Positions 34,466-44,799 of a stretch of DNA of 51,934 nt are shown here, piece by piece (position 1 is the first letter of the stretch; each line of letters opens with the position of its first letter). Origin of the DNA: Candidatus Gastranaerophilales bacterium. GTDB lineage: Bacteria > Cyanobacteriota > Vampirovibrionia > Gastranaerophilales > Gastranaerophilaceae. Under the pieces are notes generated by a model. The model searched no databases. It saw nothing but the letters and a program-made list of their open reading frames with translations, and had not been told where the DNA came from. A program made the translations under genes and the position numbers. The stretch is taken from the NCBI GenBank assembly GCA_944327245.1, contig CALVHD010000013.1, positions 1 through 51,934 of the forward strand, given 5' to 3'.

Positions 34466-35128
34466 ATGGAATTAAAAAATTTAACAAAAAATATTTATAA
34501 TGGTTTTTTAGACATGATTTATAAGAAAAAATGTCTAATTTGCGGTTGTTCAAAAACCGATGATTTACTGTGTAAAACTTGTTTAAAAGATGTTCAATTC
34601 TTATCATATTTTGCACATAAATTTTACGAAAAAATTCCTATATATTCTGCTACGATTTATGATAAAAATGTTAAATCTTTAATTCAAATGTTAAAATTTA
34701 AACACAAAAAATCAGCAGCAAAACCCTTATCAAACATTCTTTTTAGCTATTTTAAAAAATTAAATTTAAAAGATGATTATATAATTGTTTATCCTCCGAG
34801 TTTTTTCATAAAATCGGCTCAAAGAGGCTACAATCATATGTTTTTAATAGCTAAAGAATTTTCAAAATTAACAGATTTTAAAATAAATAAAAATTTAATA
34901 AAAAAAATAAAACCCACAAAACCCCAATATAAAGTAAAAGACAGAAGAAAAAACATAAAAGGAAGTTTTAAAATCAATCAAAAAGAACTCTTAAAACTAA
35001 AAGACAAAAAACTTCTCTTAATTGATGATATAACAACATCAGGAGCAACTTTAGAAGAAATTATAAATTGTTTTTTAAAACTAAATTTTAATAATATAAC
35101 TTGTCTTACAATTTCAAAAACTAAATAA
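34466..35128 (+). CDS. ComF/GntX-family phosphoribosyltransferase-like protein
   Basis: This 220-aa protein has a zinc-finger-like N terminus (Cys23, Cys26, Cys36, Cys39) followed by a phosphoribosyltransferase fold with the PRPP loop LLIDDITTSGAT. This is the ComF layout. ComF is needed for DNA uptake in naturally competent bacteria, but family members are widespread and the reaction is unknown. No other competence gene is in the window. It stands between the clpB terminator and the candidate origin. Confidence 0.85.
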   Translation: MELKNLTKNIYNGFLDMIYKKKCLICGCSKTDDLLCKTCLKDVQFLSYFAHKFYEKIPIYSATIYDKNVKSLIQMLKFKHKKSAAKPLSNILFSYFKKLNLKDDYIIVYPPSFFIKSAQRGYNHMFLIAKEFSKLTDFKINKNLIKKIKPTKPQYKVKDRRKNIKGSFKINQKELLKLKDKKLLLIDDITTSGATLEEIINCFLKLNFNNITCLTISKTK

Positions 35129-35363
35129 TTAATCTTGTGCATTGATTGTGGAAAAATTACACAAGTTATACACAAGAAAAAATTCAAGCATAATAACACT
35201 TTCAAGGTCTTTTGCACAAATATTTTGTCTTTATTATAAATTATTAATTTTATATATAAAAATATATTATTATATATAATATAAAGTTTTAAAAAAGTTT
35301 CAAATAGAAGTAATTTGTATCTTTTTTTGTTTTTATACTATAATTTTAGAATGATAAACTAAA
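35129..35363. other. Candidate chromosomal replication origin (oriC)
   Basis: This 235-base gene-free gap upstream of dnaN holds three exact matches to the DnaA box TTWTNCACA: TTTTCCACA on the minus strand at 35147-35155, TTATACACA at 35166-35174 and TTTTGCACA at 35210-35218. A weaker fourth lies at 35136-35144. They are followed by about 60 bases of almost pure A/T (35226-35285), as expected of an unwinding element. dnaN and mnmG (gidA), both classical origin neighbours, are immediately to the right, and origins beside dnaN are known in cyanobacteria. An alternative is DnaA control of dnaN only. Confidence 0.6.
35315..35344 (+). promoter_or_regulatory. Probable dnaN promoter
   Basis: TTGTAT at 35315-35320 and TATAAT at 35339-35344 are separated by 18 bases. 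The start point would fall near 35351, within reach of the GTG start at 35379. The -35 is weak. Confidence 0.45.
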
Positions 35364-35378
35364 ATGGAGAAATTGCCA

Positions 35379-36503
35379 GTGGAAATAGTTTTAAATAAAG
35401 AAGATTTTTCAAACGGAATTAAAATTGTTGAAAAAGTTACATCACAAAAAGCAATTCAACCAATACTTTCTAATATTTTAATTGAAACAGTATCACAAGA
35501 CAGAATAAGATTTTGTGCAACAGATTTAAATCTTGCAATAAATTATAAAACTCAAGCTGAAGTTATAAAAGAAGGTTCAATAACCTTAAGTGCAAAAAAA
35601 ATATCTGAAATTGTTTCAAAATTATCATCAAGTGAAGTTAGCCTTAAAACAATTGAAGATGGTGAAAATATTAAAATTAAAAGCGGTAAAACAGAATTTG
35701 ATTTAATAGGATTAAGTGCAAGAGAATTTCCAAAAGTTTTAGATGGAATTCAAGAAGAAGAATTTAAAACAGTAATTTTAAATAAAAATGAATTTGCAAA
35801 AGCTGTTAAACAAGTTATTTTTGCAGTATCTCTTCAAGAAACTCAGGCGGTTTTAACCGGCGTTTGTTTTAATATTGAAAATAATACTCTTGAACTTGCT
35901 GCAACTGATGGAAATCGTTTAACAAGGGTTCAAAAAGAAATTGAAACACCAATTGACGAAGCTTGTAATTTTATTGTTCCGGCTAAAACCCTGCAAGAAG
36001 TTTTAAGAATTTCATCAATTATTGATGATGAAAAAATTACAATTAAAATTCAAAAAAACAAAATTCTTTTTGAATTTGAAAATTTAGCTTTTCAATCAAG
36101 ATTAATTGATGGTGTTTATCCTAAATATCAACAATTAATTCCTTCTGAAAGTGAAAAGAAAATAATAGTAGATAGGGTTGAGTTAATTAATTCTATTGAA
36201 AGAGTATCTGTTATGGTTAATGATAGAACAAATGTTGTAAGGTTTAATTTTAGCCAAGGACAACTGGAAATTATGGCAGATACACCCGAAGCAGGACGTT
36301 CTAAAGATTATATTGATATTCAATATGATTTTGATGATATGTTGACGGCTTTTAATTATAAGTATGTATTGGATGGTTTAAAGAATATGGATTCTAAAAA
36401 AGTTGAAATAGAAATTTCAGATGTTTTAGCAGCTTCTATTTTTAAACCGCAAGAAGATAACAGTAATTACATTTGTTTAATTATGCCTGTTAAAGTTCAA
36501 TAG
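35379..36503 (+). CDS. DNA polymerase III beta sliding clamp
   Basis: This ring-shaped clamp tethers the replicative polymerase to DNA. The frame is open from an ATG at 35364, but that codon lacks a ribosome site. The GTG at 35379 has GGAG nine bases ahead and places the first residues (MEIVLNKEDF) where DnaN proteins normally begin, giving 374 aa. Three clamp repeats are present: LNKEDF, LNKNEFAKAVKQVIFAVS, and the third with VDRVELINSIERVS. The C terminus YICLIMPVKVQ matches the family. dnaA and recF are not adjacent. Confidence 0.96.
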   Translation: MEIVLNKEDFSNGIKIVEKVTSQKAIQPILSNILIETVSQDRIRFCATDLNLAINYKTQAEVIKEGSITLSAKKISEIVSKLSSSEVSLKTIEDGENIKIKSGKTEFDLIGLSAREFPKVLDGIQEEEFKTVILNKNEFAKAVKQVIFAVSLQETQAVLTGVCFNIENNTLELAATDGNRLTRVQKEIETPIDEACNFIVPAKTLQEVLRISSIIDDEKITIKIQKNKILFEFENLAFQSRLIDGVYPKYQQLIPSESEKKIIVDRVELINSIERVSVMVNDRTNVVRFNFSQGQLEIMADTPEAGRSKDYIDIQYDFDDMLTAFNYKYVLDGLKNMDSKKVEIEISDVLAASIFKPQEDNSNYICLIMPVKVQ

Positions 36504-37466: not shown

Positions 37467-39383
37467 ATGTCATATAACGGTTTTAAGTTTGATTGTATTG
37501 TCGTTGGCGCCGGTCATGCGGGCGTTGAGGCGGCAATTAGCGCTTCAAGGTTAGGACTTAAAACACTTTTAACTACTTTAAATATTGATAATATTGCTCT
37601 AATGCCTTGTAATCCTGCTATAGGAGGTCCTGCAAAATCTAATTTAGTGAGGGAAATTGATGCTTTAGGCGGTGTTATGGGAGAGCTTGCCGATTTAACA
37701 TATATGCAATTAAAAACTTTAAATTCATCTAAAGGTCCGGCTGTTAGAGCCTTAAGAGCGCAATCTGATAAGAAAGAATACAGATATAGCGCAAGGCATT
37801 TTGTAGAATCGCAAGAAAATTTAACTCTAAAACAAACTCAAATTGTAGATTTAATTGTCGAAAAGAATGAAATAAAAGGTGTGGTTGATGAATTAGGGAT
37901 TGAATATTTTGCTCCAAGCGTTATTTTAACAACAGGAACAAGTCTTGAAGGAAGAATTTTTATCGGTTTAAAATCTTTTCAAGCAGGAAGACTGGGTGAA
38001 AGAAGTGCCAACGGTTTATCTAATAAACTAAGAGAACTTGGTTTAAATGTCAGAAAATTAAAAACAGGAACACCAGCCAGAGTTGACGGAAGAACAATAG
38101 ATTATTCAAAACTTGAACTTCACCCAGGGGACGAGGTCATTGACGGAATGCCAAGGTTTTTTAGTTACAAACCCAATCGTCCTATAAGAAAACAATACCC
38201 TTGTTATTTAACAAAAACAAACGAAAGAACTCATCAAATAATCAGAGAAAATCTTCAATATTCTCCTTTATATCGAGGTTTAATAACGGGAGTTGGTCCA
38301 AGATATTGTCCAAGTATTGAAGATAAAGTTGTAAGATTTAGTCATAATCCTTCTCATCATATTTTTATTGAACCGGAAGGCGTTGACACTTATGAAGTTT
38401 ATATTCAGGGTTTTTCAACAAGTTTACCTATTGAAGCACAATTTCAAATGATACATTCACTTCCGGGGTTAGAAAATGTATCTGTTATAAAACCTGCTTA
38501 TGCTGTTGAATATGATAGTGTGTGTGCTCTTGAGCTTGACAACGGTTTAATGACAAAGAAAATTAAAGGGTTATTTTTAGCCGGTCAAATAAACGGCACA
38601 TCAGGTTATGAAGAAGCAGCAGCTCAAGGACTTGTAGCAGGAATTAATGCTAAAAATTATCTTGATAAAAAAGAATATATTGAATTAACCCGTTCAAATT
38701 CATATATTGGGACTTTAATTGATGATTTAATTACAAAAGATATTGATGAACCATATAGAATGTTAACATCAAGAAGTGAATACAGATTAATTTTAAGGCA
38801 AGATAATGCTGATTTAAGATTAATGGAATTAGGTTATAAAACAGGGCTTGTTAGAGAATCTGATATTTCAAGAAAAAGGTTAAAAGAACTAGAAATAGAT
38901 AACTTAATTGAAAATTTAAAAGAATTTAAAATTAGCGCAAACGAGAAAAATAAAGAAATTTTATCAAAATATAATGAAGCGCTTGAACTTGGAACGAACG
39001 GATTTAATATATTAAAAAGACCTAATGTTGATTTTAAGGTGCTAAAAGAGTTGGGTTATAAATCAAGAATAAAATCAGACGATACTTATTTAATCCGAGA
39101 TATAGAAGAACAAGCTGAAATTTTAATTAAATATGATGGTTATATTAAACGTCAATTAGATCAAATTGATAAACAAATTAAAACCGATGAAATAAAAATA
39201 CCTGATGATATTGACTATAATGCTATTAAACAAATATCAACAGAATCAAAAGAAAAATTAAATAAAATAAGACCCAAAACAATAGGTCAAGCTCTTAGAA
39301 TAGGCGGAGTTAAACCTGCTGATGTTTCTGTTTTAATGGTTTTAATAGAACAGCATAGAGTGTCAAAAAGTCTAATTCACTAG
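37467..39383 (+). CDS. tRNA uridine carboxymethylaminomethyl-modifying enzyme MnmG (GidA)
   Basis: This FAD protein works with MnmE to modify U34 of certain tRNAs. It has 638 aa. The FAD loop VVGAGHAGVEAAISASRLG, MPCNPAIGGPAKSNLVREIDALGG and the EYRLILRQDNADLRL block are diagnostic. It lies 22 bases after thrB. Its stop overlaps the kdsA end over 12 bases tail-to-tail. Its position near a DnaA-box cluster recalls the gidA-oriC association of other bacteria. Confidence 0.97.
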   Translation: MSYNGFKFDCIVVGAGHAGVEAAISASRLGLKTLLTTLNIDNIALMPCNPAIGGPAKSNLVREIDALGGVMGELADLTYMQLKTLNSSKGPAVRALRAQSDKKEYRYSARHFVESQENLTLKQTQIVDLIVEKNEIKGVVDELGIEYFAPSVILTTGTSLEGRIFIGLKSFQAGRLGERSANGLSNKLRELGLNVRKLKTGTPARVDGRTIDYSKLELHPGDEVIDGMPRFFSYKPNRPIRKQYPCYLTKTNERTHQIIRENLQYSPLYRGLITGVGPRYCPSIEDKVVRFSHNPSHHIFIEPEGVDTYEVYIQGFSTSLPIEAQFQMIHSLPGLENVSVIKPAYAVEYDSVCALELDNGLMTKKIKGLFLAGQINGTSGYEEAAAQGLVAGINAKNYLDKKEYIELTRSNSYIGTLIDDLITKDIDEPYRMLTSRSEYRLILRQDNADLRLMELGYKTGLVRESDISRKRLKELEIDNLIENLKEFKISANEKNKEILSKYNEALELGTNGFNILKRPNVDFKVLKELGYKSRIKSDDTYLIRDIEEQAEILIKYDGYIKRQLDQIDKQIKTDEIKIPDDIDYNAIKQISTESKEKLNKIRPKTIGQALRIGGVKPADVSVLMVLIEQHRVSKSLIH

Positions 39384-40237: not shown

Positions 40238-41317
40238 ATGTGCGCAGCACCAACAAAAGAAATTGATGAAAAAGAACAAAAAGCCATCCAAGAAGGTAAA
40301 AATAAAGCGTTAAAATTAGCATTAGATAAAATTGAAAAAGATTTTGGAAAAGGTTCTATCATGCGTCTTGGTGATAAATCAAGCGTTAATTGTGAATGTA
40401 TTCCAACAGGTTCATTAGCCCTTGATATTGCGCTTGGAATAGGCGGAGTGCCCAGAGGAAGAATAATTGAAATTTATGGCCCTGAATCATCAGGTAAAAC
40501 AACTTTAGCTCAACATATTGTTGCAAATGCACAAAAAAAAGGCGGAATTGCTGCTTTTATTGATGCTGAACACGCACTTGATCCTGAATATGCAAGAAAT
40601 TTAGGAGTTGACGTTGATCAATTGTTAATTTCTCAGCCTGATACAGGTGAACAAGCACTGGAAATTGCCGAAGAATTAGTGCGTTCAGGCGCTATTGATG
40701 TTATTGTTATAGATTCTGTTGCAGCGTTAGTACCTAAAGCTGAAATTGAAAAAGCCATGGATGAACAACAAATGGGTTTACAAGCTCGCTTGATGTCAAA
40801 AGCATTAAGAAAATTAACAGGTATTGTAGGTAAAACAAATACGACTGTTATTTTTATTAACCAACTAAGACAAAAAATCGGTATAATGTTTGGTAATCCG
40901 GAAACAACAACAGGCGGAAATGCTCTAAAATATTATGCTTCAGTTCGTCTTGATATAAGAAGATGTGATAGTGTTAAAAATAAAGATAACGAAGATATAG
41001 GTAACAGAGTTCGTGTTAAAGTTGCTAAAAATAAAGTAGCACCTCCTTTTAAGGTTGCCGAATTTGATATTATTTATGGTAAAGGTATTTGTGCTTTAGG
41101 TAATATTATCGATGTTGCGGTTAATTTTGATATTATTAAAAAAGCTGGTGCATGGTTTAGTTATAATGATGAAAAATTAGGACAAGGCAGAGAAAAAGCA
41201 AAAGAATTTTTAGAACAAAATCCTGATATTTTAGCTGAAATTGAAGCAAAAGTCAGAGAAAAAATAGCTGCTAAAAATAAACCTCAACAAGATATTGAAA
41301 ATAAGGAAGAAAAATAG
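40238..41317 (+). CDS. Recombinase RecA
   Basis: This is the strand-exchange ATPase of homologous recombination and the SOS response. It has 359 aa. Walker A GPESSGKT is at residues 81-88, with [21 protein letters not shown] and [20 protein letters not shown] following. The last 20 residues are a Lys/Glu tail. GTGAGG precedes the ATG at good spacing. I see no LexA-type palindrome in the 50-base upstream gap. rmlA starts at the next base after its stop. Confidence 0.98.
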
Positions 41318-43865: not shown

Positions 43866-44039
43866 AATTTTTCCTGTTTATATAAAGACCTAATATACAA
43901 AACTCCTAAAGAACAAAAGTTGTAAAATAATGTAGAATATTAAGAAACATTAAGAAAAATAAATATTTACTACAATAGTAAAAACTATTATACCCAGTAA
44001 CTTTTCCTAGTTCTAATGGCTTATTTTTACTTTGTTAGG

Positions 44040-44068
44040 CTTACAAAATATTTTTTTTGTGGTATAAT
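44040..44068 (+). promoter_or_regulatory. Strong promoter of the 53-aa gene
   Basis: CTTACA (44040-44045) and a perfect TATAAT (44063-44068) are 17 bases apart, with TG one base before the -10 (extended -10). The rest of the 43866-44039 gap shows nothing I can name. It would also hold the promoter of the divergent 561-aa gene. Confidence 0.7.
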
Positions 44069-44113
44069 GCTTGCAAAAGTTGTTAGTTGTATTAATATCG
44101 TTAGGAGGTTCTT

Positions 44114-44275
44114 ATGTCACTTTCTACTCAAAAAACGGAAACTCAGATTTCTATTAAATCTAAGTTCAACGATGAATTCCAACACTATTTGAAAAAACAA
44201 TGTTTAAAAACAACATTCAATGGACTAGAATTAGAAACCTTCAGTTGGTACAAAAAAGTTTTAGGGTTGGTTTAA
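44114..44275 (+). CDS. Small unknown protein, 53 aa
   Basis: ATG at 44114 with a near-perfect ribosome site TAGGAGGT (44102-44109), a strong extended -10 promoter and a hairpin terminator after it make this a monocistronic, probably abundantly expressed gene. The product starts MSLSTQKTETQISIKSKF and ends WYKKVLGLV. It is polar and basic with one Cys and no signal peptide or membrane helix. I do not recognise it. Possible roles such as a small regulator or structural protein are only guesses. Codon use fits the neighbours. Confidence 0.75.
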   Translation: MSLSTQKTETQISIKSKFNDEFQHYLKKQCLKTTFNGLELETFSWYKKVLGLV

Positions 44276-44294
44276 AACAAAAGATTTTCAAAAT

Positions 44295-44329
44295 AAAAAA
44301 AGCGGAGTTGAGTTAATCCCGCTTTTTTT
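44295..44329. terminator. Bidirectional terminator between small genes
   Basis: AAAAAAAGCGG and CCGCTTTTTTT pair over eleven bases around a 13-base loop. The T run on the plus strand and the A run that becomes T on the minus strand let it serve both the 53-aa gene and the convergent 88-aa gene. Confidence 0.88.
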
Positions 44330-44335
44330 ATGTTT

Positions 44336-44602
44336 TTATATATTTACATCGAAACTTCTTTTTGTTTCTGCTGCTTTTAAATTCATGCCGACAATCATAG
44401 CCTGACGAGAATACATATTTATTTCTTTTGCAACGTCGCCGTTAAATACATTTTCATTTTTTATAAAATAGTTTGACATAGAATCAAACAAATTAGGAGA
44501 TTCAGGATTGATATCAAGCTCTTTTTTTGGTGTTTGATATGATTTTGTTTGAGGGGTAACATTTAGCCCAAATCTTGAACCTAAATTATAATTTTGAGCC
44601 AT
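44336..44602 (-). CDS. Small hypothetical protein, 88 aa
   Basis: The ATG is preceded by AAAGGAGA at good spacing, so the gene is real and well translated. The first 40 residues are polar and Pro/Thr/Ser/Asn-rich (GLNVTPQTKSYQTPKK), the rest helical (MSNYFIKNENVF, KEINMYSRQAMIVGMNLKAAE). No signal peptide or membrane helix. I do not recognise the family. It shares a terminator with the 53-aa gene and is divergent from hsp20. Confidence 0.7.
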   Translation of the reverse strand: MAQNYNLGSRFGLNVTPQTKSYQTPKKELDINPESPNLFDSMSNYFIKNENVFNGDVAKEINMYSRQAMIVGMNLKAAETKRSFDVNI

Positions 44603-44679
44603 AAAATTCTCCTTTATTGTTCGACCTTATGTTTTAATTTACGACATTTCGTCATTTTAACTTTAATGATTTATTCTGT

Positions 44680-44700
44680 TTTGTAAAGAATATTTACAAA
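44680..44700. promoter_or_regulatory. Inverted repeat upstream of hsp20
   Basis: TTTGTAAA-GAATA-TTTACAAA is a perfect eight-base inverted repeat in the divergent gap between the 88-aa gene and hsp20. Its symmetry and place fit a repressor operator. The regulator is unknown and no CIRCE sequence is present. Confidence 0.4.
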
Positions 44701-44720
44701 TATTATTCCATTTTTTCAAA

Positions 44721-44788
44721 TTTAATAAACAAAAAGGTAATGTTAATTTTTAAAAAATAATTCAAAATGGATTATCTAGTTTATTAAA
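44721..44788 (+). promoter_or_regulatory. Distant inverted repeat reaching the hsp20 ribosome site
   Basis: TTTAATAAAC (44721-44730) and GTTTATTAAA (44779-44788) are perfect complements 48 bases apart. The second arm directly abuts AGGAG, the hsp20 ribosome site. If both lie in the leader, an A/U-only helix could form that melts on warming. This is speculative. Confidence 0.3.
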
Positions 44789-44799
44789 AGGAGAAAATA

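Follow-up and report, generated by a model that had tools for sequence, protein, structure and literature searches.

Background

The closest described counterparts of the locus reported here are cyanobacterial. In Synechococcus elongatus PCC 7942 and other Cyanobacteria, the replication origin lies beside dnaN, at the shift point of the GC skew, with dnaA located elsewhere (PMC7198777); a preliminary description of the present DNA pointed to origins of this kind when it proposed a candidate oriC between a comF-like gene and dnaN. A second described system is the basal unwinding system (BUS), in which DnaA passes from its boxes to trinucleotides of consensus 3'-GAT-5', the spacer between the two having its peak at 10-13 bp (PMC8287927).

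The window, i.e. the whole stretch of DNA that was analysed, is the entire contig C13 (51,934 nucleotides) of a 1.70-Mb genome (1,703,937 bp in 45 contigs), whose nearest named relatives are MAGs of Candidatus Gastranaerophilales; the host is an uncultured, non-photosynthetic gut cousin of the cyanobacteria. A literature search returned no paper joining Gastranaerophilales and GC skew and, for Melainabacteria/Vampirovibrio, none on their replication origin, as judged by title and abstract. Here, I argue that positions 35129-35363 of the window are, with little room for doubt, the chromosomal replication origin, a DnaA-dependent oriC.

Elements of the proposed origin region

The comF/dnaN intergenic gap measures 235 bp. 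The comF-like gene on its left has Pribosyltran and DZR_2 matches just under the curated Pfam cut-offs, and dnaN on its right has three DNA_pol3_beta domains above cut-off; DnaN, a ThrB-type kinase and MnmG are all backed by Pfam, and mnmG starts at 37467, 2.1 kb on from the gap. The dnaA gene of the same genome lies on a separate contig from dnaN (C17:2553), with Bac_DnaA and Bac_DnaA_C above cut-off. The whole window has zero Rfam matches and zero tRNAs; near recA (40238-41317) there is another gap of 0.9 kb (43866-44799), without an ORF of at least 90 aa and without an Rfam or tRNA match. The features of the region are as follows.

34466 to 35128, + strand: comF-like gene, left neighbour
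35129 to 35363, no strand: very probable oriC, the entire comF/dnaN intergenic region, supported by the cluster of boxes, the AT tract, the exact change point of the skew and conservation
35147 to 35155, - strand: DnaA box 1, TTTTCCACA, exact TTWTNCACA; inverted with respect to box 2, which starts 19 bp further on; place kept in most of the genus
35166 to 35174, + strand: DnaA box 2, TTATACACA, exact TTWTNCACA; conserved place in the genus
35210 to 35218, + strand: DnaA box 3, TTTTGCACA, exact TTWTNCACA; 44 bp past box 2, facing the AT tract
35216 to 35337, no strand: AT tract, presumed DNA unwinding element, with the AT-richest 100-mers of the contig
35219 to 35230, + strand: 12-nt spacer, AATATTTTGTCT, from box 3 to the trinucleotides; length common to most of the family
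35231 to 35247, + strand: DnaA-trio-like tract, TTATTATAAATTATTAA; TTA on top is 3'-AAT-5' below; broken after two repeats
35339 to 35344, + strand: TATAAT, probable -10 element of dnaN, judged from its sequence and an aligned stretch conserved genus-wide
35364 to 36503, + strand: dnaN, DNA polymerase III beta clamp

The observations on which the preliminary description had built its candidate all hold: three exact TTWTNCACA boxes within 72 bases (35147-35218), a tract of nearly pure A/T following them, a position directly upstream of dnaN and 2.1 kb from mnmG according to the ORF coordinates, and a gene orientation that stays unchanged across the gap instead of switching exactly there. Two further exact boxes lie within comF, at 34569 and 34609. 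The window as a whole holds 11 boxes against 10.2 expected, i.e. no general enrichment, so that the signal resides in their clustering. On a Poisson model based on the full genome count (252 boxes in 1,703,937 bp), only 0.011 clusters of three per 72 bp are expected genome-wide, and the probability of at least three boxes in the comF/dnaN gap is 7e-6. AT content peaks at 92% per 100 bp, against 71% for the contig, and all 100-mers that reach this maximum begin at 35216-35238. The gap brings together a box cluster beyond chance, an adjacent AT-rich element and a skew switch (see below), in a genome that encodes a dnaA with the helix-turn-helix box-binding domain.

With the cyanobacterial oriC of the S. 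elongatus type the locus shares its position immediately upstream of dnaN and the location of dnaA elsewhere; moreover, an inverted pair at a distance of 18-20 bp, resembling boxes 1 and 2, is part of the box clusters that precede dnaN in the cyanobacterial genomes sampled. It differs in having three boxes, as opposed to 5-11 in the clustered cyanobacterial cases, in that not all of its boxes are TTTTCCACA, in its very AT-rich setting, and in the Asn found at DnaA position 433, where the sampled Cyanobacteria have Asp.

The likeness to the BUS consists in box 3, the 12-nt spacer, trinucleotides of the right type and strand, and the AT tract. CTA/TTA read on the top strand corresponds to 3'-GAT/AAT-5' on the bottom one; the choice of strand follows the arrangement of box and trios in B. 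subtilis. The trinucleotides (TTATTA) begin within the 16 nt of a DnaA box that define a BUS, yet its rule of at least three consecutive repeats is only partly followed in the genus of the window, where TTATTA, a short interruption and ATTATTA succeed one another, and AT-rich DNA eases chance matches. Longer trinucleotide runs occur in many sister genera. The usual order throughout the family is a last forward box, then 12 nt of spacer, TTA/CTA trinucleotides and an AT tract.

In the mechanism proposed here, DnaA, encoded on contig C17, would occupy boxes 1 to 3, the first two as an inverted pair, and would then reach from box 3 past the 12-nt spacer to the TTA trinucleotides; the AT tract would be melted by DnaA, and two forks would depart in opposite directions, making initiation bidirectional.

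GC skew at dnaN and at dnaA

Raw GC skew follows gene orientation, therefore third-codon (GC3) skew per gene strand was used instead; for the window's own genome the analysis covers contig C13 alone. All + strand genes from 14854 to 35128 have fewer G than C at third codon positions and the - strand genes there have at least as many G as C, the signs being reversed for most genes to the right of 35364. A leading/lagging change-point model locates the switch exactly in the gap, between positions 35128 and 35364 (delta lnL 60.0, the next best being 56.3), and none of 2000 same-strand permutations is equally good.

In two congeners, G127 and G057, a single contig (160 and 120 kb, respectively) holds dnaN as well as dnaA, at a distance of 39 kb. 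In both, genes of both strands flip sign in the bin holding dnaN, and one skew sign is maintained across dnaA. A sign change around the dnaN bin also emerges in G155, from another genus, of which 20 stretches along a 740-kb contig were sampled. A skew minimum at dnaA had been named beforehand as the outcome that would count against the proposed origin; the switch lies instead at the dnaN gap in the window, G127 and G057, and the proposal therefore withstands that test. Gene-strand bias was also considered as a marker of the origin and dropped, being roughly balanced on the relatives' contigs.

Skew is little or absent in G145 (almost none on a large contig), G203, G205 and G207, too little for a flip to show. 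Three of these (G145, L135-L154; G203, L305; G205, L322) are close relatives nearly devoid of replication-type GC skew, in contrast to the window genome (G000), G127 and G057; rearrangement, several origins or a slower mutation bias may lie behind this.

Some observations favour a rival view, in which replication in this lineage no longer depends on DnaA, in full or in part, and starts at several sites, the gap being a relic of an older origin: skew is weak and boxes are degraded in some congeners (G145, G021), and cyanobacteria with irregular skew have lost DnaA-oriC dependence repeatedly (PMC7198777). Against this, the skew of the window genome steps sharply, its boxes are intact and conserved, and dnaA is present in every one of the 160 genomes of the family with a completeness of at least 90% and a contamination of at most 5%; a relic is thus very improbable, and a DnaA-dependent oriC remains by far the better reading.

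Conservation of the box array among relatives

Within the genus, the boxes keep near-constant places from dnaN, at about -217 (reverse), -198 (forward) and -154 (forward), and are degraded at this site in a few congeners. The forward pair with 44-bp spacing occurs a single time in the window's own genome and is found upstream of dnaN in 17 of the 27 genomes of the genus; a reversed control pattern gives 7 matches anywhere in all 27.

In G207 (L303 8500-9602 on G207:C25 versus L304 on G207:C4), dnaN and the comF-oriC module have been parted naturally: one contig has dnaN-thrB-mnmG, and on a different one the module (TTTTGCACA, AATATTTTGTCT, TTATTATAG...) stays just downstream of comF. This genome bears on the possibility that the boxes form a DnaA-controlled promoter site of dnaN or a DnaA titration site, the true origin being elsewhere. 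Such a role is conceivable, in that the dnaN promoter lies inside the region and DnaA boxes outside origins are known to regulate genes (PMC7198777); however, the module is retained beside comF where dnaN has moved off, hence it is more than a promoter element of dnaN, and the skew switches exactly at the gap and not at dnaA. The two observations together contradict a role confined to the regulation of dnaN and leave an origin elsewhere very unlikely. The candidate oriC of the preliminary description is accordingly upheld by the skew switch, by the conserved box array and by the persistence of the module where dnaN moved.

In sister genera, the presumed oriCs, with TTTTCTACA boxes, have the same place, spacer length and trinucleotide tract, with a skew flip at dnaN in several; they differ in base 6 of the box, T or A as opposed to C or A in the clade of the window, and in DnaA position 433, Lys or Arg as opposed to Asn. 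In ten sister-genus genomes with TTTTCTACA boxes, inverted box pairs are found only upstream of dnaN; several further genomes have the pair at a distance from dnaN, 1.4 to 47 kb when on the same contig, and these displaced pairs are mostly still followed by the 12-nt spacer, the trinucleotides and the AT tract.

In genus g8 and others (L085, L086, L090, L095; L374-L380), the box cluster is absent directly upstream of dnaN and the module lies elsewhere, at most 47 kb away on the same contig; the inverted TTTTCTACA pair was not found in the g8 genomes G183, G074, G045 and G100.

Clusters of box-like motifs are also seen in other families of the class, a few hundred bp from dnaN on its upstream side, and often contain two forward boxes 42-44 bp apart; in families f2 and f7 dnaA adjoins dnaN. 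From these gene arrangements, it is plausible that dnaA moved away and the origin remained beside dnaN. Most of the family has the two genes far apart or on separate contigs, but in genus g29 (G090, L217) about 2 kb separates dnaN from a dnaA located upstream of it.

DnaA residue 433 and the sixth base of the box

The DnaA of the window genome matches solved DnaA chains, its Asn aligning with the Asp in the GRDHTT motif (8btg), which is D433 in E. coli DnaA. This Asp is present in 30 of the 30 Cyanobacteriota loci sampled outside the class and in none of 87 class sequences (L001, L155-L164, L183-L202, L219-L261, L306-L321), which have Lys (50), Asn (23), Thr (5), Arg (4), Gly (4) or Gln (1) instead.

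The boxes vary along with it. Upstream of dnaN outside the class, base 6 is C in 64 boxes, A in 2 and G in 1 (12 of 18 loci). Within 700 bp of dnaN, the boxes of Asn433 genomes have C in 57, A in 59, T in 6 and G in 1, and those of Lys433 genomes T in 147, A in 99, C in 11 and G in 10. The only congener with Thr433, G021 (L066, L242), has boxes near dnaN solely of the A6 type (TTWTNAACA), which fits, as a single case.

Within the family, 433 is the sole column of domain IV that fully separates the Asn and Lys clades: columns 399, 434, 435, 438 and 439 are alike in both and 423 is partly different. Twelve columns outside domain IV separate the two clades just as well. The Asn clade has a single origin on the DnaA tree, for which reason the shift of 433 and box counts, within the family, as one event. 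Furthermore, the base that changes is at position 6, adjoining the contact at position 7 that is cited at second hand, and A6 is cheap in AT-rich DNA. The correlation, resting on few evolutionary events, suggests that residue 433 and base 6 may have changed together.

I lean slightly towards the view that the box-reading code of DnaA has been rewritten in the class: Asp433 would have been lost at or near the class base, mostly to Lys, with base 6 passing from C to T or A (TTTTCTACA), and the clade of the window would have undergone one Lys-to-Asn change and a return to C or A, so that initiator and origin co-changed and the layout was kept. The box variants relevant to such a recognition code are TTTTCCACA, TTTTGCACA, TTTTGAACA and TTTTCTACA; among the matches listed in a literature search with TTTTCTACA, the papers are unrelated by title.

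Conclusions

To sum up, the DNA elements, the skew switch and the conserved box array strongly support an oriC in Candidatus Gastranaerophilales, which I assign to the cyanobacterial dnaN-adjacent type; this type would thereby extend to a non-photosynthetic sister class of the Cyanobacteria. Placing the origin in uncultured gut bacteria helps estimates of growth rate based on metagenomes. The comparison also provides a naturally occurring series, open to testing, in which the initiator's conserved DNA-contact residue and one base of the site it binds seem to shift jointly.
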